Position numbers and translations under genes: made by a program | Shown here: positions 1,493-16,865 of the stretch, one piece after another | Layout of the letters: the number at the start of each line of letters is the position of its first letter | How positions within the stretch are numbered: position 1 is the first letter of the stretch | The notes under the pieces: generated by a model | The model's input: only the letters and a program-made list of their open reading frames with translations | What the model was told of the DNA's origin: nothing | Databases searched by the model: none | Virus record (IMG/VR): IMGVR_UViG_3300011113_000411 | Location: 1-28,988 of that record | DNA: 28,988 nt | Direction: 5' to 3' (one strand) | DNA from: a virus

Positions 1493-2068
1493 TCACAGCC
1501 GCACGCGCTCGCCCTCCAGCCCGACGCGCCCAGCCCCCGCCAGCACCCGAAGCGCCCTGACGACCGACTGGCGGCGCGTGTCGCGCTTACCCCCAGTGCC
1601 CGCAGGCAGCTTGGCCACGGCCCGCTCTACCACCTCTGAGAGGCCCGCAACGTCAGCCACAAGGCCCAGCTCCCCCACCGCCTCCATCACCGCCCGCTCG
1701 TTCGCCCCGACGCGCGGCTCCCTCACCTTCGCAACCTTGACCGGCAGCGCCGCAATCTGCTCCTGCGTCTTCCACGCATTGGCCATGTGCGTGGTGAAGC
1801 CATAGCGATGCGCCGGGCAGCAGCGCGTCAGGTGGGGCGAGGTCATCCACTGATGCACCTCCTTCGTCGTGATGAAATACTCCTCACACATCGCGCAGGC
1901 CGCCTCCAGATCGACGAACAGGTGGAACTTGCCCCGGCGCTTGAACGGCCGAACGGCGACCACCTCATACGTCTGCTCGATGTCAGGCAGTACGAAACTG
2001 TCCCCGACAGTCCACTGCCCGCCCTTGTGATCCTCGATGAATGCCTTCACCTCATCCGCGTTTGTCAT
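1493..2068 (-). CDS. Unknown protein: Cys/His cluster plus C-terminal winged-helix-like module
   Basis: 191 residues from an ATG with GGAGG four bases upstream; a longer in-frame GTG/ATG start is possible but lacks a site. I do not recognise the family as a whole. Residues 58-87 contain C-x2-C and, 21 residues on, C-C-x2-H, which looks like a zinc-binding knuckle. The last 65 residues resemble the C-terminus of the phage primase-helicase at 8570-10600; both contain KRD-x-RRQSVVRA in the same place, so a shared winged-helix DNA-binding module is likely. First gene of the leftward transcript that leads into both terminase genes, with its own promoter at 2085-2113. A transcriptional or packaging regulator is a guess. 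The 66 bases between its stop and the small terminase start show no clear signal. Confidence 0.75.
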   Translation of the reverse strand: MTNADEVKAFIEDHKGGQWTVGDSFVLPDIEQTYEVVAVRPFKRRGKFHLFVDLEAACAMCEEYFITTKEVHQWMTSPHLTRCCPAHRYGFTTHMANAWKTQEQIAALPVKVAKVREPRVGANERAVMEAVGELGLVADVAGLSEVVERAVAKLPAGTGGKRDTRRQSVVRALRVLAGAGRVGLEGERVRL

Positions 2069-2084
2069 ACGACCTCCATACCCA

Positions 2085-2113
2085 ACCATACCCCAGCGCA
2101 ACGGGCAGTGCAA
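2085..2113 (-). promoter_or_regulatory. Leftward sigma70-type promoter with a variant of the phage operator
   Basis: On the minus strand, -35 TTGCAC (2113-2108), a 17-base spacer, then -10 TATGGT (2090-2085). The spacer contains GTTGCGC, the right half-site also found at the rightward promoter 2282-2310; the left half-site is one base short compared with the other copies. The predicted transcript would start near 2078 and give an untranslated leader of only about ten bases before the ATG at 2068. It would drive the unknown gene and the terminase genes. Confidence 0.55.
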
Positions 2114-2137
2114 CACCATACTCTACATCACTTTACT

Positions 2138-2205
2138 TGCACCATGCAGCAGGCATCATCAACTTGGAAAAGAAGGTTAAGTGATGATGCATGCTGCACG
2201 TTGCA
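2138..2205. repeat. 24-bp imperfect inverted repeat with a 20-base loop
   Basis: Arms at 2138-2161 and 2182-2205 pair at 21 of 24 positions; the core TGATGATGC...TGCTGCA is identical. The 20 bases between them are purine-rich (2162-2181). There is no T-run after either arm, so a simple terminator is unlikely. It lies in the non-coding divergent region beside phased ATGCTGC repeats and an A/T-rich stretch (2260-2277), an arrangement seen in replication origins and in multi-site operator regions. Function unknown. Confidence 0.7.
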
Positions 2206-2257
2206 GTCTGCACCATACATCATGACGCATCATGCTGCGCCATGCTGCAAATGCTGC
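2190..2257 (+). repeat. Phased ATGCTGC direct repeats (iteron-like)
   Basis: ATGCTGC occurs at 2191, 2232, 2242 and 2251; three of the four copies are preceded by C. Spacings are 41, 10 and 9 bases, roughly whole helical turns, so a protein could bind all copies on one DNA face. The first copy is part of the right arm of the inverted repeat at 2138-2205. An A/T-rich tract follows immediately (2260-2277), then the promoter at 2282. Candidate origin iterons or a regulator array. Confidence 0.5.
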
Positions 2258-2281
2258 AGGAAAATAATTTGAAAATAGGTG

Positions 2282-2310
2282 TTGCAACGCCACGTTGCGC
2301 GTGCCATAGA
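2282..2310 (+). promoter_or_regulatory. Rightward early promoter with operator dyad (copy A)
   Basis: -35 TTGCAA (2282-2287), 17-base spacer, -10 CATAGA (2305-2310). The dyad TTGCAAC-GCCAC-GTTGCGC covers 2282-2300, so a bound protein would block or contact RNA polymerase. Preceded by AAAATAGGT, also found before copy E at 17152. The predicted start is near 2316, so the mRNA would begin with ATCAACAACG, the shared leader, followed by GGAGACACC and the ATG at 2342. Confidence 0.65.
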
Positions 2311-2341
2311 GGGTCATCAACAACGCATACGGAGACACCCA

Positions 2342-2725
2342 ATGACCACCGCCCGCCAGATCGATGAACTGAAGTCCGAAGGCCGCTACTTCGAAGCCGG
2401 CAAGCTGGCTCGCCAACTCGGCGACACCACCGGCTACGGTTGCCACTTCGGCCTCCGCTCGGAACTGGAGAAGGCCCGCGCCGAGTTCGAGCTGGGCTTC
2501 AACGCTGAAGACACCGTGGCCGTCTGGCCGCGCGGTTACGCCCACGAAGATGGCACCTCCAAGATCAAGGTGCCCGCTGGCACCCCGGAGGCTGACGTTG
2601 CGCGCATCGTCCGTAAGCAGTTCGGCTCGTTTGCCTCGATCAGCGGCATCACCCGCGCTCGCCCGCCGGTTGCTCCGGTGAGCGACGCCGATGCTCGCCA
2701 CTACAGCCGCCACGACAACACCTAA
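2342..2725 (+). CDS. Hypothetical early protein
   Basis: 127 residues; the ATG at 2342 is chosen because the shared leader and GGAGA end just before it. Not recognised. It is helical and charged at the start (ARQIDELKSEGRYFEAGKLA), which suggests a short helical repeat, followed by a mixed domain with FAEDTVAVWPRGY-like strands and an Arg/Pro-rich tail ending in HYSRHDNT. Soluble, no membrane segment. First gene of the main rightward operon, directly under promoter copy A, so it is probably expressed early and strongly. Confidence 0.75.
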   Translation: MTTARQIDELKSEGRYFEAGKLARQLGDTTGYGCHFGLRSELEKARAEFELGFNAEDTVAVWPRGYAHEDGTSKIKVPAGTPEADVARIVRKQFGSFASISGITRARPPVAPVSDADARHYSRHDNT

Positions 2726-2734
2726 TCAGCAACG

Positions 2735-2756
2735 GGGGCGGCCACCGCGCCGCCCC
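2735..2756 (+). promoter_or_regulatory. GC hairpin inside a leader
   Basis: GGGGCGGC (2735-2742) pairs perfectly with GCCGCCCC (2749-2756) around a six-base loop. No T-run follows, so it is not an ordinary terminator. It sits between a copy of the shared leader motif (ATCAGCAACG, 2724-2733) and the ribosome site GGGAGA of the gene at 2777. It could stabilise the mRNA or mark a processing point. Confidence 0.5.
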
Positions 2757-2776
2757 AACCAACAGGGAGACACGAC

Positions 2777-3031
2777 ATGACCATCGACCACCTGCCTGAC
2801 GCCCAGTTCCTCGCAGCGACCAAGCTGCTCGAGACACATGTCCTCGCCAACCACGAAGTGATCGAACTGCGCGTCACGCCGTCCTTCGCCGGCAAGCACG
2901 TCTACGTGTACTGCGTCGCCGCCTTCATCGACTATGGGGCCAACGAAGATATCACCACCGCCGGGCGCTTCGCCCGCTCCGGCTTCCACGTCCGCATCGG
3001 CGCACGCGGTGCCGTCAAGCACCTCAAGTAA
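2777..3031 (+). CDS. Hypothetical protein
   Basis: 84 residues, ATG preceded by GGGAGACACGAC, the same ribosome-site wording used by its neighbours. Not recognised. Predicted as a small alpha/beta protein: helix at residues 8-30, then strands around VIELRVTP and VYVYCVAAFIDYG, with a basic C-terminus GARGAVKHLK. No signal peptide or metal-binding motif. Co-transcribed with the genes on either side. Confidence 0.7.
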   Translation: MTIDHLPDAQFLAATKLLETHVLANHEVIELRVTPSFAGKHVYVYCVAAFIDYGANEDITTAGRFARSGFHVRIGARGAVKHLK

Positions 3032-3043
3032 GGGAGACACGAC

Positions 3044-3355
3044 ATGACGCACACACCGGGCCCTTGGTACGCCGTCGGCCGCATGGTCGAGGTGGACGAC
3101 GACGACCACGCTGACATCTGCACCACCAACCCTGACCTGTTCGGGCAGGGGCACCGTGCGCCGCCGATCGAGGAGCAGCAGGCCAACGCCCGCCTGATCG
3201 CCCTTGCGCCTGACATGCTCGCCATGCTGCAGGAGGTCGCCGACTACCTCGACTGCTACGCCGACGTGATCGACGGCGACGACGGCCAGCCCGAGGCGAA
3301 CGACGCCATGCGGCTGCTGACGGCCGTGACCGATTTGATCGCCCCTCATAATTGA
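3044..3355 (+). CDS. Phage protein of the THTPGPW...NARLIALAP type
   Basis: 103 residues. The opening THTPGPW and the central ANARLIALAPDMLAMLQEVA are the hallmarks of a small protein found in very many phages of proteobacteria; its function is not known to me. Between them is an acidic stretch (residues 15-25, VEVDDDDHADI). The C-terminal half is helical. ATG follows GGGAGACACGAC. The gene is 12 bases from its upstream neighbour, so both are in one operon. Family recognition is firm; no role can be given. Confidence 0.85.
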   Translation: MTHTPGPWYAVGRMVEVDDDDHADICTTNPDLFGQGHRAPPIEEQQANARLIALAPDMLAMLQEVADYLDCYADVIDGDDGQPEANDAMRLLTAVTDLIAPHN

Positions 3356-6551: not shown

Positions 6552-6718
6552 TCGCCGAGGCACGTGAGGCCTTCGCCCAGCGCGATCGGCTGCAGGCCGA
6601 GCTGAACGCCGTCAACGACCGGCTGGCCAAGCTCAAGGCGCAATACATGGCGGAGACGCACATCTGGGGCATCCGAGACGAGCGCTTCCGTCACGAGATC
6701 AACAAGGAATACGCATGA
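6548..6718 (+). CDS. Small coiled-coil protein (56 residues)
   Basis: ATG at 6548 overlaps the previous stop (ATGA) and its own stop overlaps the next start (ATGA). The product is helical: EAREAFAQRDRLQAELNAV followed by LAKLKAQY is a textbook coiled coil, then WGIRDERFRHEINKEYA. It resembles its upstream neighbour in character and may pair with it. Function unknown. The exact overlaps at both ends support it as a real gene. Confidence 0.65.
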   Translation: MIAEAREAFAQRDRLQAELNAVNDRLAKLKAQYMAETHIWGIRDERFRHEINKEYA

Positions 6719-6948
6719 CAGACCGTGTTGCCACCATCAACCTCGCCATCGCCAAGGGCGGCGGCATCGTCCGCTTCGCCAAGAGCATGGGCGTGTCGCA
6801 TCAGGCCGTCTACGCGTGGAAGCGCAGAGGCTGGGTTCCGGTCGAGAAGGCCGTCGTGATCGAGGCCGCCTACGGCATTCCGCGCGATGAGCTGATGAGC
6901 CCAGATCTCGTCCGCGCACTCGCCGCCCCCGGTACTGACCTGCTGTAG
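6715..6948 (+). CDS. YdaS/Cro-like helix-turn-helix regulator
   Basis: 77 residues. The pattern AIAKGGGIVRFAKSMGVSHQ, then AVYAWKRRGWVP and a helix EKAVVIEAAYGIPRDELMSP, is that of the YdaS-like Cro family: a small DNA-binding protein with the recognition helix around residues 28-38. Such proteins act as phage repressors or anti-repressors. It is the only recognisable transcription factor in the window, so it is the first candidate to bind the TTGCAAY-N5-RTTGCAA operators, though nothing in the sequence proves that. It lies between the coiled-coil genes and the methyltransferase; four-base overlap with the previous gene. Confidence 0.8.
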   Translation: MTDRVATINLAIAKGGGIVRFAKSMGVSHQAVYAWKRRGWVPVEKAVVIEAAYGIPRDELMSPDLVRALAAPGTDLL

Positions 6949-6959
6949 GAATACCTCAC

Positions 6960-8558
6960 ATGCGTTACGGATCCGTTTGCAGCGGCATTGAGGCCGCGAC
7001 AGCCGCTTGGCACCACATGGCTTGGGAACCCGCCTTCTTTTCGGAGATCGAGGCGTTCCCCTGCGCGGTGCTGTCACACCACTATCCTGAAGTTCCGCTG
7101 CACGGCGACTTCACGACCATTGAGAAGAACCAATATGGCAAAATCGACCTCCTCGTTGGCGGCACACCTTGCCAATCCTTCAGTGTCGCCGGTCTCCGAG
7201 GTGGATTGGATGATCAGCGTGGTAACCTCGCCCTTGAGTTTTGCCGACTTGCTCAGCGTGAGCAACCTCGCTGGATTGTCTGGGAAAATGTCCCCGGCGT
7301 CCTGTCATCGGGAGGAGGACGGGACTTTGGTTCCATCCTCGGGGCGCTGGAAGACCTCGGGTATGGCCTCGCCTACCGAGTGCTTGACGCTCAGTACTTC
7401 GGAGTGGCCCAGCGACGCCGCCGTGTGTTTGTTGTCGGATACCTTGGAGACTGGCGTCCTGCCGCAGCGGTTCTTTTTGAGCGGCACAGCATGTCAGGGC
7501 ATCCTGCGCCGAGCCGAGAAGCGCGGAAAGACGCTGCCCGAGCAATTGCATCGGGCGTTGAAGAGCGTGGTGGCTGCGGAGGGGATGGATCTTCTGTAGA
7601 CTGGCCCGCAGACGTAGCCTGCACACTGGACACTGACTTCGCCAGCAAGTGGGGTCAGAACAACCAGCACGTCAACGCCGGCTGCCCGCTTGCCGCAGGC
7701 GCACACGCGCCAGCGATAGCATTTGCCCAGAACACACGCGATGAGGTGCGTCTGGTCGGCGGCGATGGTGAGATCGCAGGGGCGCTCGCCGCGCAGCCGG
7801 GCATGAAGCAGACGACCTATATCGCGTATGACCATCCCGGCCGGTTCAACAACATCCACGGCGGGTCAGGCGAGCACCGCGAGATCATGCCAACGCTTGA
7901 GGCCACGAACCCGAAACAGATCATCGCCTTCAGCAGCAATATGTCAGTCCCTGATTGTCAGACGGACGGCACTACGCCGACCCTGAAGCTGGGCGGCCAC
8001 GGTGGCGGTAATCCGCCAGCGGTGGTCTACCCGATCAACACCCAGATGGCGCTGCGCGGTGCAGATACGTCAAACACAAGCAGGGAAGGCGTGGGCATCG
8101 GTGGCGAAAGCGACCCCGCTTTCACGCTGCAAGCTGGCCACTGCCATGCGGTGGCTTTTGGAGAAACGGCCCGCACTTTGTCAGCGCGGCATGACGGCAG
8201 CCCATGCGTCGACCGCGGGCCTGATGTGGTAGCTGTGGCGTTTGGCCTTGCCACACCCGTCACACCAAAGTGGTGGGAAGAACTGTCCCCGACACTGACG
8301 CAGCCCAGCCCAACTGGGGGCGGCCAGCCTGCAGCCGTGGCCATAACATCAGCCGTCCGCCGCCTGACCCCCGTGGAGTGCGAACGGCTTCAGGGCTTCC
8401 CCGACAACTTCACCGCCATCCCGTGGCGCAAGAAGGGCGCAGAGGACTGCCCAGACGGCCCGCGCTACAAGGCGCTGGGCAACAGCATGGCTGTGCCGGT
8501 GATGCGCTGGATCGGTGAGCGCATCCAAGTTGTTGACGACCTGATTTCAGTCTTGTGA
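6960..8558 (+). CDS. DNA (cytosine-C5) methyltransferase with repeat-rich middle region
   Basis: 532 residues; transfers a methyl group from S-adenosylmethionine to cytosine C5 in DNA. Motif I is GSVCSGIEAATAAW (4-17), motif IV holds the catalytic Cys71 in GGTPCQSFS, motif VI is ENVPG (109-113), motif VIII QRRRR (151-155), and motifs IX-X lie at 465-515 (LTPVECERLQGFPDNF, then ALGNSMAVPV). Residues 215-465 hold about six repeats of the form (A/P/S)-T-L...(P)A-h-A-F, probably the target-recognition part. No restriction enzyme lies beside it, so protection from host restriction or gene control is more likely than a restriction-modification pair. Over residues about 59-213 the third codon positions are unusually poor in G/C, matching a nested gene in the +1 frame. 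Confidence 0.93.
   Translation: MRYGSVCSGIEAATAAWHHMAWEPAFFSEIEAFPCAVLSHHYPEVPLHGDFTTIEKNQYGKIDLLVGGTPCQSFSVAGLRGGLDDQRGNLALEFCRLAQREQPRWIVWENVPGVLSSGGGRDFGSILGALEDLGYGLAYRVLDAQYFGVAQRRRRVFVVGYLGDWRPAAAVLFERHSMSGHPAPSREARKDAARAIASGVEERGGCGGDGSSVDWPADVACTLDTDFASKWGQNNQHVNAGCPLAAGAHAPAIAFAQNTRDEVRLVGGDGEIAGALAAQPGMKQTTYIAYDHPGRFNNIHGGSGEHREIMPTLEATNPKQIIAFSSNMSVPDCQTDGTTPTLKLGGHGGGNPPAVVYPINTQMALRGADTSNTSREGVGIGGESDPAFTLQAGHCHAVAFGETARTLSARHDGSPCVDRGPDVVAVAFGLATPVTPKWWEELSPTLTQPSPTGGGQPAAVAITSAVRRLTPVECERLQGFPDNFTAIPWRKKGAEDCPDGPRYKALGNSMAVPVMRWIGERIQVVDDLISVL
7135..7599 (+). CDS. Candidate nested gene in the +1 frame of the methyltransferase
   Basis: 154 residues from ATG 7135 (frame open back to TTG 6988), read one base out of step with the methyltransferase. 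The methyltransferase loses its normal C/G-ending codon preference across this span and regains it after 7599, the stop of this frame, while codons here end mostly in G or C. The product is Ser/Thr-rich early (SFADLLSVSNLAGLSGK) and ends in LSDTLETGVLPQRFFLS and ACQGILRRAEKRGKTLPEQL. From memory, that ending recurs in phage proteins of unknown function, but I could not check this. The ribosome site (GAGAAG) is weak. Function unknown. Confidence 0.6.
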   Translation: MAKSTSSLAAHLANPSVSPVSEVDWMISVVTSPLSFADLLSVSNLAGLSGKMSPASCHREEDGTLVPSSGRWKTSGMASPTECLTLSTSEWPSDAAVCLLSDTLETGVLPQRFFLSGTACQGILRRAEKRGKTLPEQLHRALKSVVAAEGMDLL

Positions 8559-13979: not shown

Positions 13980-16865
13980 ATGAGCACACTGTACCTCGAT
14001 CTCGAAACATTCTGCGAAACGAAGATCACCTACGGCGCGTACCGCTATGCGGAGGACGCCGAGGTGATGCTGGTGGCGTGGGCGTGTGACGACGAGCCCG
14101 TAACCGTCTGGGACACGCAGGACATGCCGCACTGGCGTGACGCGCTGCAGAACATCATCGACAAGGCCGATCGCGTTGTGATCCACAACAGCAACTTCGA
14201 CCGCACCGTCCTGCGCGAGCAGGGCGTCCACATCCCCGTGGAGAAAATTATCGACACGATGGTGCTGGCCCTGCAGCACAGCCTGCCCGGATCTCTGGGC
14301 CAGCTCTGCGACGTGCTGAACGTGCCGCAGGACAAAGCCAAAGACACGGCGGGCAAAAAGCTGATACACTTGCTGACGAAGCCGAGGCCCAGCAACGTAA
14401 AAATACGGAGAGCCACCCGTGACACACACCCCGCCGAGTGGGCCGCCTTCGTCGAGTACGCCCGGCTGGATGTGGACGCAATGCGAGACGTACTTGGACG
14501 ACTGCCATCATGGAACGATAGTGATCGTGAGCGGCTCTTGTGGCAGTGTGATCAAAGAATTAATGACCGTGGTGTCGCCGTTGACCGAGAGTTTGCACGA
14601 GCAGCTATACGAGCTTTCGATCGAGCTGGACGATCTCTGGCCGCTCGTGCAGCCCATCTGACGGGCGGCAGCGTCACGTCCGCCACGCAGCGCCAGCGCC
14701 TGCTCGACCACCTCAAGGATGCCCACGGCTTCGAGACCGAAGATCTGACGCGCGGCACGCTCGGCACCCTGCTCGCCGGCGACCTCAATCCGCAGGTGCG
14801 CGAGCTGCTGGAGATACGGCAGCAGGCGGCCGCGACGAGCCCGGCCAAGTACGGTGTGCTGATCAACGCCACGAACCGGGACGGCCGCCTGCGCGGCCTG
14901 ATCCAGTTCTGCGGCGCGTCGCGCACTGGGCGTGACGCCGGCCGGCTGTTCCAGCCGCAGAACCTGCCGCGATCGCCCGACTGGTTCGACGGCGACGTGC
15001 AGGCGACGACCGTGGCCGCCATGAAGGCGGACTGCGAGCACCTGATCTGGGACAACGTCAGCGAGCGCTGCGCGTTTGCCGTGCGCGGGGCGCTGGTTGC
15101 CCCCGAGGGCACCAAGCTGGTCATCGCCGACCTGTCCAACATCGAGGGGCGCGTCTTGGCGTGGTTAGCCGGCGAGGACTGGAAGGTCACCGCGTTCAAG
15201 GCCTACGACCGGGGCGAGGGGCACGACCTGTACAAGGTCACCGCCGGCCGCATTCTCGGCAAAGATCCGGGCGTCATCACCAAGGCCGAGCGGCAGCTTC
15301 AAGGGAAAATCCCTGAGCTTTCTGGGGGTTACCAAGGGGGCGTCGGCGCGTACCGAGCAATGGGCGGCCCAGTCTTCGACGCCATGACCGACGAGGCCAT
15401 TCAAAAGATCGTCTCCGCGTGGCGCAAGGCCCACCCGCGCACGTGCAATTTGTGGTACGACATGGAGGCGGCCGCGCGGTCAGCCATCAACAAACTGGGC
15501 GAGAGCTTCGCCGTGCGCGACCTGATCACATTCGACGTGAAGGCGGACGCGCAGGGCATCGCGTGGCTGCGGATGAAGCTGCCGAGCGGCCGCTACCTGT
15601 GCTACCCGCACCCGGAGGTGTCGGACAGCGCCAGCCTGTCGTACGAGGGCATCAACCAGTTCACGCGCAAGTGGCAGCGCCTCGACACGTACGGCGGCAA
15701 GCTCTGTATCGCGGGCGGTACTCTCGTCCTTACCGATGCTGGCTGGCTTCCGATCGAACAGGTGACCGTAATCCATAAAGTGTGGGACGGCGTAGAGTGG
15801 GTGGGCAACGAGGGGCTTGCCAGAAAAGGTGTTAAGGAGGTAATAAACTTGAATGGCGTTTGGATGACGCCAGACCATGAAGTGCTTACAACGAAAGGCT
15901 GGGTTCGTGCATCACAGAGCGAAGGACTTGAGCGAGCAGACCCTCGGATACCTGACGGTTGTGAAGTACCACGGGAGCAACGGTCGCCGGTCTCTGTGGC
16001 TGCTTCGATGCCGGTGTGGAGCTGCGGTAGTGCTCGCAGCGACGGAAATAGCGAAACAGCAGAAGCGCGGCATTCAGACCTCCTGCGGTTGCATGCGGAA
16101 CAAGACCATATCGGAGAAGCGGACAACTCACGGGATGTCGGGCCACAAAGCGTTCGCGGTGTGGCGCAGCATGATCGACAGGTGCTCACTGCCGACCCAT
16201 CAGGCTTGGGCGCGATACGGAGGGCGTGGAATAACGGTGTGCGATCAGTGGCGGAAATCCTTCAGCGCCTTCTGGGCCGATATGGGATCGACTTACCGCG
16301 AGGGGCTTACGCTGGAGCGGAAGGACAACGCCGCCGGATACTCCCCGGAAAACTGCGTGTGGGCCACGCCGCTGAAGCAGGCGCGGAACAAACGCACGAA
16401 TGTGCATATCAACACGCCGTGGGGGCGGATGACTGTCGCGGAAGCGGCGGATCGCTCAGGTCTGAACAGAACAACGCTGTACTACCGGGTGAACAACGGA
16501 GTGCCGGAACATCGACTTTTCGAGGTGCCCGATACGTCACGGAAGTTTACGATCTGGTAAACTGCGGGCCACGCAGCCGTTTCGTGGTTGCTGGGGAGGA
16601 CGGCAAGACGCTGATCGTCCACAACTGCGAGAATGCCGTGCAGGCGATCGCGCGCGACGTGTTCATGCACGGCATGCTGCGCGCCGAGGAGGAGGGCTAC
16701 AGCGTCTGCATCCGCGTACATGACGAGCTGGTCTGCGAGACGCCGGACGAGCCGGCGTACAGCAGCGACGGGCTGGCGGCGCTCATGGCGACCAACCCGA
16801 GCTGGTCGGCCGGCCTGCCGCTTGCGGCGGCGGGGTTTGAAGCGTACCGTTACCGCAAGGACTGA
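13980..16865 (+). CDS. Family A DNA polymerase with 3'-5' exonuclease, interrupted by an intein
   Basis: 961 residues; 654 after removal of the intein at residues 576-882. Exonuclease motifs: YLDLETF (5-11), IHNSNFDRTVL (64-74) and YARLDVDAM (159-167). Polymerase motif A is VIADLSNIEGRVLAWLAGE (about 381-399), motif B the ERQLQGKIPELSGGY helix, and motif C RVHDELVCE near 911. It is the phage replicative polymerase. ATG 13980 has AGAGG upstream, buried in hairpin 2. The intein sits between GGKL and CENAVQAIARD, a conserved palm region, so activity needs splicing. A nested +1 gene (14419-14661) overlaps the exonuclease part. VRR-NUC and helicase genes follow. Confidence 0.93.
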   Translation: MSTLYLDLETFCETKITYGAYRYAEDAEVMLVAWACDDEPVTVWDTQDMPHWRDALQNIIDKADRVVIHNSNFDRTVLREQGVHIPVEKIIDTMVLALQHSLPGSLGQLCDVLNVPQDKAKDTAGKKLIHLLTKPRPSNVKIRRATRDTHPAEWAAFVEYARLDVDAMRDVLGRLPSWNDSDRERLLWQCDQRINDRGVAVDREFARAAIRAFDRAGRSLAARAAHLTGGSVTSATQRQRLLDHLKDAHGFETEDLTRGTLGTLLAGDLNPQVRELLEIRQQAAATSPAKYGVLINATNRDGRLRGLIQFCGASRTGRDAGRLFQPQNLPRSPDWFDGDVQATTVAAMKADCEHLIWDNVSERCAFAVRGALVAPEGTKLVIADLSNIEGRVLAWLAGEDWKVTAFKAYDRGEGHDLYKVTAGRILGKDPGVITKAERQLQGKIPELSGGYQGGVGAYRAMGGPVFDAMTDEAIQKIVSAWRKAHPRTCNLWYDMEAAARSAINKLGESFAVRDLITFDVKADAQGIAWLRMKLPSGRYLCYPHPEVSDSASLSYEGINQFTRKWQRLDTYGGKLCIAGGTLVLTDAGWLPIEQVTVIHKVWDGVEWVGNEGLARKGVKEVINLNGVWMTPDHEVLTTKGWVRASQSEGLERADPRIPDGCEVPREQRSPVSVAASMPVWSCGSARSDGNSETAEARHSDLLRLHAEQDHIGEADNSRDVGPQSVRGVAQHDRQVLTADPSGLGAIRRAWNNGVRSVAEILQRLLGRYGIDLPRGAYAGAEGQRRRILPGKLRVGHAAEAGAEQTHECAYQHAVGADDCRGSGGSLRSEQNNAVLPGEQRSAGTSTFRGARYVTEVYDLVNCGPRSRFVVAGEDGKTLIVHNCENAVQAIARDVFMHGMLRAEEEGYSVCIRVHDELVCETPDEPAYSSDGLAALMATNPSWSAGLPLAAAGFEAYRYRKD
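14419..14661 (+). CDS. Candidate nested gene in the +1 frame of the polymerase exonuclease domain
   Basis: 80 residues from GTG 14419. Upstream, inside the polymerase gene, stands AGCAACG (14391-14397) then GGAGAG (14407-14412) seven bases before the GTG, the same leader and ribosome-site wording as the early genes; it is built with codons rare for this genome (ATA, AGA). Polymerase codons from about 14468 to 14658 end mostly in A or T, against the strong C/G rule elsewhere, and normal use returns right at this frame's stop. The product has a Ser/Pro start, then CHHGTIVIVSGSCGSVIKEL and an acidic helix (SLHEQLYELSIELDDLWPLV). Not recognised. ATG 14470 is an alternative start. Confidence 0.5.
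   Translation: MTHTPPSGPPSSSTPGWMWTQCETYLDDCHHGTIVIVSGSCGSVIKELMTVVSPLTESLHEQLYELSIELDDLWPLVQPI
15705..16625 (+). mobile_element. Intein in the DNA polymerase (307 residues)
   Basis: Protein-splicing element. Block A begins with Cys1 (CIAGGTLVLTDAGWLPIEQV). Block B is GVWMTPDHEVLT (intein residues 51-62) with Thr55 and His58. Block F is VYDLVNCGPRSRFVVAG (281-297). Block G ends LIVHN, with the catalytic His306-Asn307, and the next extein residue is Cys. All splice-site chemistry is present. Residues between about 65 and 278 show no intein homing domain in this frame; instead the DNA encodes an HNH endonuclease one frame over (15877-16560). The polymerase frame stays open across it, which splicing requires. 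Confidence 0.9.
15877..16560 (+). CDS. HNH homing endonuclease encoded out of frame inside the intein
   Basis: 227 residues from ATG 15877 (GTG 15907 is an alternative start nearer the family's usual beginning), one frame ahead of the polymerase. Residues 16-72 match the N-terminal domain of phage HNH nucleases (LGYLTVVKYHG, C45-x-C47 ... C70-x-C72, likely zinc-binding). The nuclease core spans 85-172: HKAFAVWRSMIDRC, WARYGGRGI, LERKDNAAGYSPENCVWAT. The end, 178-216, is a helix-turn-helix (MTVAEAADRSGLNRTTLYY). It should cut intein-free polymerase genes and so spread the element. Its start overlaps block B and its TAA lies inside block F. Codon third positions here are G/C-rich in this frame. 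Confidence 0.88.
   Translation: MKCLQRKAGFVHHRAKDLSEQTLGYLTVVKYHGSNGRRSLWLLRCRCGAAVVLAATEIAKQQKRGIQTSCGCMRNKTISEKRTTHGMSGHKAFAVWRSMIDRCSLPTHQAWARYGGRGITVCDQWRKSFSAFWADMGSTYREGLTLERKDNAAGYSPENCVWATPLKQARNKRTNVHINTPWGRMTVAEAADRSGLNRTTLYYRVNNGVPEHRLFEVPDTSRKFTIW

Follow-up and report, generated by a model that had tools for sequence, protein, structure and literature searches.

Lee et al. are said to have described, in 1995, the beta gene of the C5-cytosine DNA methyltransferase (MTase) M.EcoHK31I as lying nested within the alpha gene in another reading frame. M.EcoHK31I is a two-polypeptide C5 MTase that carries motifs I-VIII, the TRD and motif X in one chain and motif IX in the other, and its activity needs the second polypeptide (PMC3404938). 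Another hidden protein is known from the ShiLan element, an out-of-frame HNH endonuclease in an actinophage methylase, which is a mobile insertion of patchy distribution (PMC11855218). Nested CDSs have furthermore been annotated in the +1 frame of the C5 MTase genes of Streptococcus phage MM1 (ORF13/ORF14) and phage P0091 (gp39/gp40), at an offset of 151 nt and hence +1. They are labelled simply 'DNA methyltransferase', and we found no study of the function of MM1 ORF14 or P0091 gp40.

A different group of phage C5 MTases likewise contains +1 ORFs, the products of which make up phrog_1008 (83/83 loci with both matches) and show a shifted substitution pattern; one of them, the 'Mte8-like protein' ORF30 of K1G, is annotated inside ORF31. 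With phrog_1008 as a second nested type, a second protein nested in a C5 MTase gene is thus a recurrent arrangement. By eye, the ending of the phrog_1008 proteins, LNPxxxxWLMGxPxxW, resembles MTase motif IX and their architecture looks M.EcoHK31I-like.

A nested reading frame in a viral MTase gene

The window analysed here is the whole 28,988-base stretch of a virus record (IMGVR_UViG_3300011113_000411), in which a C5 MTase gene adjoins phage replication genes and contains an ORF of 154 codons in its +1 frame (Table 1). The first-pass annotation had delimited this ORF from the letters of the sequence, and its coordinates are correct; the +1 frame inside the MTase gene is open over a stretch (6949-7596) that is longer than the ORF from ATG to stop. 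Directly upstream of the MTase gene a YdaS/Cro-like helix-turn-helix small protein is encoded (6715-6948, + strand; PF15943, E 4e-8).

Table 1. Features of the MTase locus and its nested ORF, in window positions
Feature	Position	Strand	Remarks
C5-cytosine DNA methyltransferase, frame 0, 532 aa	6960..8558	+	PF00145, E 1e-54; PCQ, ENV, motifs VIII, IX and X
Nested ORF, +1 frame, 154 aa	7135..7599	+	ATG 7135, TAG 7597-7599
Probable nested start ATG in the window's clade	7135..7137	+	without clear Shine-Dalgarno sequence in the window
Nested C-terminal conserved part, residues 85-149, constraint peak	7387..7581	+	LSxxLExxxxPxRYFLSxxACxGILRRAxxRGKxLPxxLxxAL
LSDTLETGVLPQRFFLS, nested residues 100-116	7432..7482	+	homologous to in-frame DILE..VDEKYYLS after motif VIII of ordinary C5 MTases
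Two confidently predicted nested C-terminal helices, residues 117-130 and 136-153	7483..7593	+	predicted structure
MTase motif VIII, QRRRRVFVVG, residues 151-160	7410..7439	+	nested old-MTase segment starts directly over the motif VIII end
MTase motif IX, RRLTPVECERLQGF	8358..8399	+	kept in frame 0, unlike M.EcoHK31I alpha
MTase motif X region, YKALGNSMAVPV	8466..8501	+	frame 0

As in ShiLan, a phage DNA methylase gene hides a second protein in a frame other than that of the methylase. The arrangement differs in that the nested ORF overlaps the catalytic core and conserved motifs of the MTase, does not represent an insertion and is a constant feature of large MTase clades, and in that neither an HNH nor any other Pfam match was obtained with the nested protein.

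Over the nested ORF the composition of the MTase gene shifts, in that GC3 falls from 0.724 ahead of codon 59 to 0.535 in codons 59-213 and returns to 0.734 behind them, and the +1 frame itself has a GC3 of 0.753 across the overlap. Both features had been noticed in the first-pass annotation, which called the A/T-ending codons of this span unlike the rest of the window. The dip is real but this wording is slightly overstated, as GC3 is just as low in a stretch of 155 codons in the DNA polymerase gene (minimum 0.52, from 15816 on). That stretch also overlaps a nested +1 ORF (15877-16560, + strand, 227 aa), which codes for an HNH endonuclease (phrog_374, E 4e-54). This second ORF lies within an apparent intein of the DNA polymerase A gene (13980-16865, + strand), which by eye extends from about 15711 to 16620 (CIAGGTLVLTD... 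to ...GKTLIVHN, with C as the next residue). The element appears to be an intein with an out-of-frame homing endonuclease, and similar overlaps are found in the DNA polymerases of a Caulobacter phage and of APSE (APSE-1 P45/P46). A further GC3 dip (0.58) is located at 14430-14730 (+ strand) in the same gene.

Could the open +1 frame of the MTase gene, together with its similarity to other phage sequences, be a mere by-product of MTase conservation and high GC, with no second protein being made? In the window gene an open +1 frame is indeed not rare, as 19% of synonymous-codon shuffles of the MTase are also open in +1 over codons 59-212. On its own it is therefore weak evidence, and the case for a second protein rests on comparison with relatives.

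Dual coding in relatives of the MTase gene

When the nested protein was used as query, tblastn gave matches in 148 phage records and 67 viral contigs, and at every viral contig or phage locus examined the match was to the +1 frame of an MTase. Of the 320 loci first examined, 80 had been selected solely on the MTase frame and 160 solely on the nested motif, with bacterial genomes contributing half of the latter; the motif is present in all 320, at an offset of +1 throughout and in no case outside an MTase gene. It scores 110 bits in the real sequences as compared to 16 bits in sequences whose synonymous codons had been shuffled with the MTase protein unchanged. Since loci and sequence pairs share ancestry, counts of this kind are not independent.

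Synonymous constraint was assessed in a codon alignment of 215 non-redundant sequences as the ratio of observed to expected codon identity at conserved residues. This ratio is ~1.1 over codons 1-48, 1.35 over codons 49-60 and 1.4-1.7 through codon 132, rises to 1.7-2.0 over codons 133-156 and to 2.1-2.8 over codons 157-204, with a peak of 2.8 times expectation at codons 181-192, and is ~1.0 from codon 205, the constraint being gone at the +1 stop. The strongly conserved C-terminus of the MTase, which served as a control for amino-acid conservation, shows ratios of 1.17-1.36. Synonymous change is thus strongly suppressed exactly over the nested ORF, in line with the earlier proposal that the same bases are under selection for two proteins. 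Within codons 157-192 the third positions of the MTase change less than its first positions (0.21 and 0.39, respectively), whereas outside the overlap the corresponding values are 0.62 and 0.27, and over the same codons identity is higher for the +1 protein (0.72) than for the MTase frame (0.55).

Stop codons are avoided as well. Of the 215 sequences, 87% have no +1 stop within codons 59-142, as compared to 39% of synonymous shuffles, and for loci picked by the MTase frame the values are 98% and 47%, respectively. Over this region, +1 amino-acid identity is hardly above +2 identity, indicating that the N-terminal half of the nested protein is only loosely constrained. Most of its conservation signal comes from the C-terminal ~65 residues and the N-terminal part is weakly conserved.

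The view that the +1 frame merely shadows the conservation of the MTase is very improbable on these grounds and has been rejected: synonymous shuffling that preserves the MTase protein destroys the motif, the constraint is bounded by the nested ORF, and in the C-terminal part conservation is higher in the +1 frame than in the MTase frame, which holds for phages of moderate GC and for AT-rich phages as well. Suppressed synonymous change would also be expected if a structure or regulatory signal in the MTase mRNA held third positions constant. This explanation was likewise rejected and is, in our judgement, extremely improbable, since it is mainly the third positions of the +1 frame (the first positions of the MTase) that change, which is the mark of a protein, and since the signal is ~155 codons long and stops at the +1 stop codon.

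Signals for translation of a second protein are enriched too. An ATG in the start zone is found in 77% of the relatives as compared to ~46% of shuffled sequences, and one with a Shine-Dalgarno (SD) sequence of at least 5 bases in 28% as compared to ~11%. In the Streptococcus-phage relatives AGGAG lies upstream of the nested start, and the combination of ATG and SD reaches 79% as compared to 29% after shuffling. The nested start shifts by a few codons between clades and relatives, and the ATG of the window is a plausible start. Taken together, these comparisons show, at the level of substitution patterns, that the +1 protein is under purifying selection of its own across very diverse phages. 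Without expression data at hand, we are nevertheless highly confident from sequence evidence that the second protein exists and that it is the product of a genuine nested gene, widespread and almost unannotated.

How widespread this gene is can be seen from its carriers. The dmt gene of phage P1 contains the nested ORF (58% identity over the C-terminal 69 residues), which is unannotated in P1, and the family is present in 535 plasmid records, mostly P1-like, in mycobacteriophages, in Vibrio, Caulobacter, Roseobacter, Sinorhizobium, cyanobacterial, Akkermansia, Oscillospiraceae and Streptococcus phages, and in prophage-like loci of many phyla. The hosts of the carrier phages and prophages include Proteobacteria, Firmicutes, Actinobacteria, Acidobacteria, Verrucomicrobia, cyanobacteria and others. 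Nearly always the nested gene is unannotated, the exceptions being the MM1 and P0091 pairs and gp104 of the Mycobacterium phage Thibault. In the latter (1539-3340) the gene of the HNH endonuclease gp103 interrupts the MTase, leaving gp102 and gp105 on either side, and the nested +1 product, annotated as hypothetical, is visible because of this interruption. The annotated nested CDSs MM1 ORF14, P0091 gp40 and Thibault gp104 also bear out the statement, in the first-pass annotation, that the ending of the nested protein is similar to known phage proteins. Moreover, residues 34-121 of the nested protein match positions 47-133 of the 139 of phrog_16143 (E 3.2e-8), which also matches 13 of 18 motif members and, judged by these profile matches, is evidently the nested product. 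Both PHROG 16143 and PHROG 1008 are labelled 'DNA methyltransferase', a label that describes the host gene and not the nested product.

Searches of Pfam, NCBIfam, PADLOC and PDB sequences with the nested protein gave no match. A separate homologue outside an MTase gene was found neither in the viral and bacterial collections (80 + 80 loci) nor in 274 further genomes, phage records and P1-like plasmids; the motif-profile search of genomes also gave a few weak partial matches, which remain unresolved. The nested gene was to have been refuted by the lack of homologues outside MTase genes combined with free synonymous change in relatives. As far as we searched, the former does apply, but the latter is false.

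Origin of the conserved C-terminal segment

The first-pass annotation had missed that the nested protein has an ending homologous to the post-motif-VIII segment of the MTase itself, a segment that other MTases contain in frame. The segment is found at offset 0 in five MTases, those of SPBc2 (mtbP), SPbetaL2, Phocaeicola BV57P1, Alicyclobacillus MMB025 and Staphylococcus SpP, and at +1 in Enterococcus EC99P2, Clostridioides phiCD27 and Streptococcus phages. Nested ORFs of the Streptococcus type end in SLSDILEEEVDEKYFLSEE, and those of MM1 and P0091 have SLSDILEE and YFLS elements at their end but are devoid of the ACxGILRRA..RGK..LP extension of the window type. SPbeta mtbP and E. coli-type Dcm contain the homologous ILE..VDEKYYLS..K segment after motif VIII within their main chain, whereas in the window class it is one frame off. 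The segment is located 17-52 residues past motif VIII in the five in-frame phage enzymes measured and directly overlaps the end of motif VIII in the nested class.

In profile comparisons by hhalign the in-frame segments matched the Streptococcus nested segments with 98.7% probability (E 3e-16) and the latter matched the window type with 97.2% (E 4e-11), while the direct comparison of in-frame segments and window type gave 73% (E 3e-5), so that the stronger link runs via the Streptococcus intermediates. Other frames of the same DNA, used as a control, stayed below 1%. These profile matches show homology between the nested C-terminal segment and the stretch that, in ordinary C5 MTases, is read in frame and separates motif VIII from the target-recognition region. 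The simplest history, whose direction is inferred without a tree, would be that the segment left the MTase frame through an ancient deletion or frameshift immediately behind motif VIII, and that the old frame survived in a new overlapping ORF, the N-terminus of which is overprinted and mostly disordered.

The same geometry could be read as programmed +1 ribosomal frameshifting near motif VIII, by which a truncated MTase with an old-frame tail ending at 7599 would be made without separate initiation. The old-frame segment starts exactly over the end of motif VIII, a shift at this point would restore the ancestral order of segments, and +1 protein-level conservation is concentrated after the motif VIII end. 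Yet constraint, stop avoidance and the enrichment of starts and SD sequences begin ~100 codons further upstream (codons 49-60), where a shift would have no need of them, and the nested CDS has a strong SD of its own in Streptococcus phages. We therefore regard frameshifting as unlikely and favour separate translation of the nested gene, with initiation inside the MTase gene in the +1 frame; the overlap would guarantee co-expression of the MTase and the nested protein.

Possible role of the nested protein

What, then, would the nested protein do? Its AF2 model is confident only for residues ~110-153, which form a C-terminal helical hairpin (pLDDT 87-98), and the N-terminal 80-odd residues are predicted to be disordered. 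Foldseek returned nothing significant for this model against the PDB and, against predicted viral proteins, only weak matches above the 0.001 line, namely Thibault gp104 and the MTase A0A8S5LZA8, whose frame was not checked. In its predicted model the MTase is folded beyond motif VIII as far as residue ~175; as residues 201-450 are unresolved, the model is silent on whether the enzyme needs the missing segment. Nor does the MTase have to be incomplete, since motifs I-VIII, IX and X remain in frame 0. The MTase of the pneumococcal phage SpSL1 methylates 102 of 113 RCGRC sites according to bisulfite data (PMC6755750). It belongs to the nested class and its gene carries an intact, unannotated nested ORF. 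An active MTase of the nested class thus co-occurs with the nested gene, although this does not show that the latter is necessary.

M.EcoHK31I offers the closest parallel, as there too a small second chain carries an MTase-derived piece. In M.EcoHK31I this piece is motif IX, whereas the nested protein described here carries the post-motif-VIII segment and the window MTase has motifs IX and X in frame 0, for which reason we do not class it as an M.EcoHK31I type. Also, the need for the second chain is established for M.EcoHK31I and not for the window class. By analogy, the MTase may still work like M.EcoHK31I. The nested protein is found only with an MTase, it is homologous to an MTase piece and natural two-chain C5 MTases exist, which makes a partner of the MTase, either a beta-like subunit or a chaperone or regulator, its most likely function; such a partner would supply in trans the structural segment that was lost from the main chain. 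This role is inferred by analogy and without expression or biochemical data, and we hold it with about as much belief as doubt.

Alternatively, the nested protein could be real but have a role separate from the enzyme, be it as an inhibitor of the MTase or of host restriction, as a feedback regulator, or as an unrelated overprinted small effector. Overprinted genes are commonly accessory or regulatory, which would fit such a role, as would a protein with a disordered N-terminus, a small helical C-terminus and no fold or family match. In addition, P1 can do without dmt, which contains the nested ORF, according to a CRISPRi screen (PMC10695390); this is what one would expect of a modification enzyme. 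A separate role would, however, not readily account for the strict linkage to the MTase over enormous divergence without a separate copy having been found, and the homology of the conserved part to an MTase segment points to a function with the MTase. We consider a separate role possible but rather doubtful. The complete explanation, that is, a genuine second gene in which an old MTase segment was kept after a frameshift and whose product would act as an MTase partner, is the one towards which we lean slightly.

The protein revealed by our work would have been hidden in a gene that is among the commonest of phages; it is conserved across many host phyla and unannotated even in the textbook phage P1. 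As gene callers suppress nested ORFs, hundreds of records are without the nested gene or mislabel it. Codon optimisation for recoded expression of such phage MTases would silently remove the second protein. The conserved part of this protein seems to represent a frame in which the gene was formerly read and which remained under selection after a frameshift; this would be an unusual route to a new gene or to a split enzyme. Tentatively, and with more doubt than conviction, we suggest that this phylum-crossing class of C5 MTases, including P1 Dmt, consists of two-protein enzymes to which the frameshifted segment is supplied in trans from the nested frame. If this is true, phage C5 MTases, P1 Dmt among them, would long have been mistaken for single-chain enzymes.
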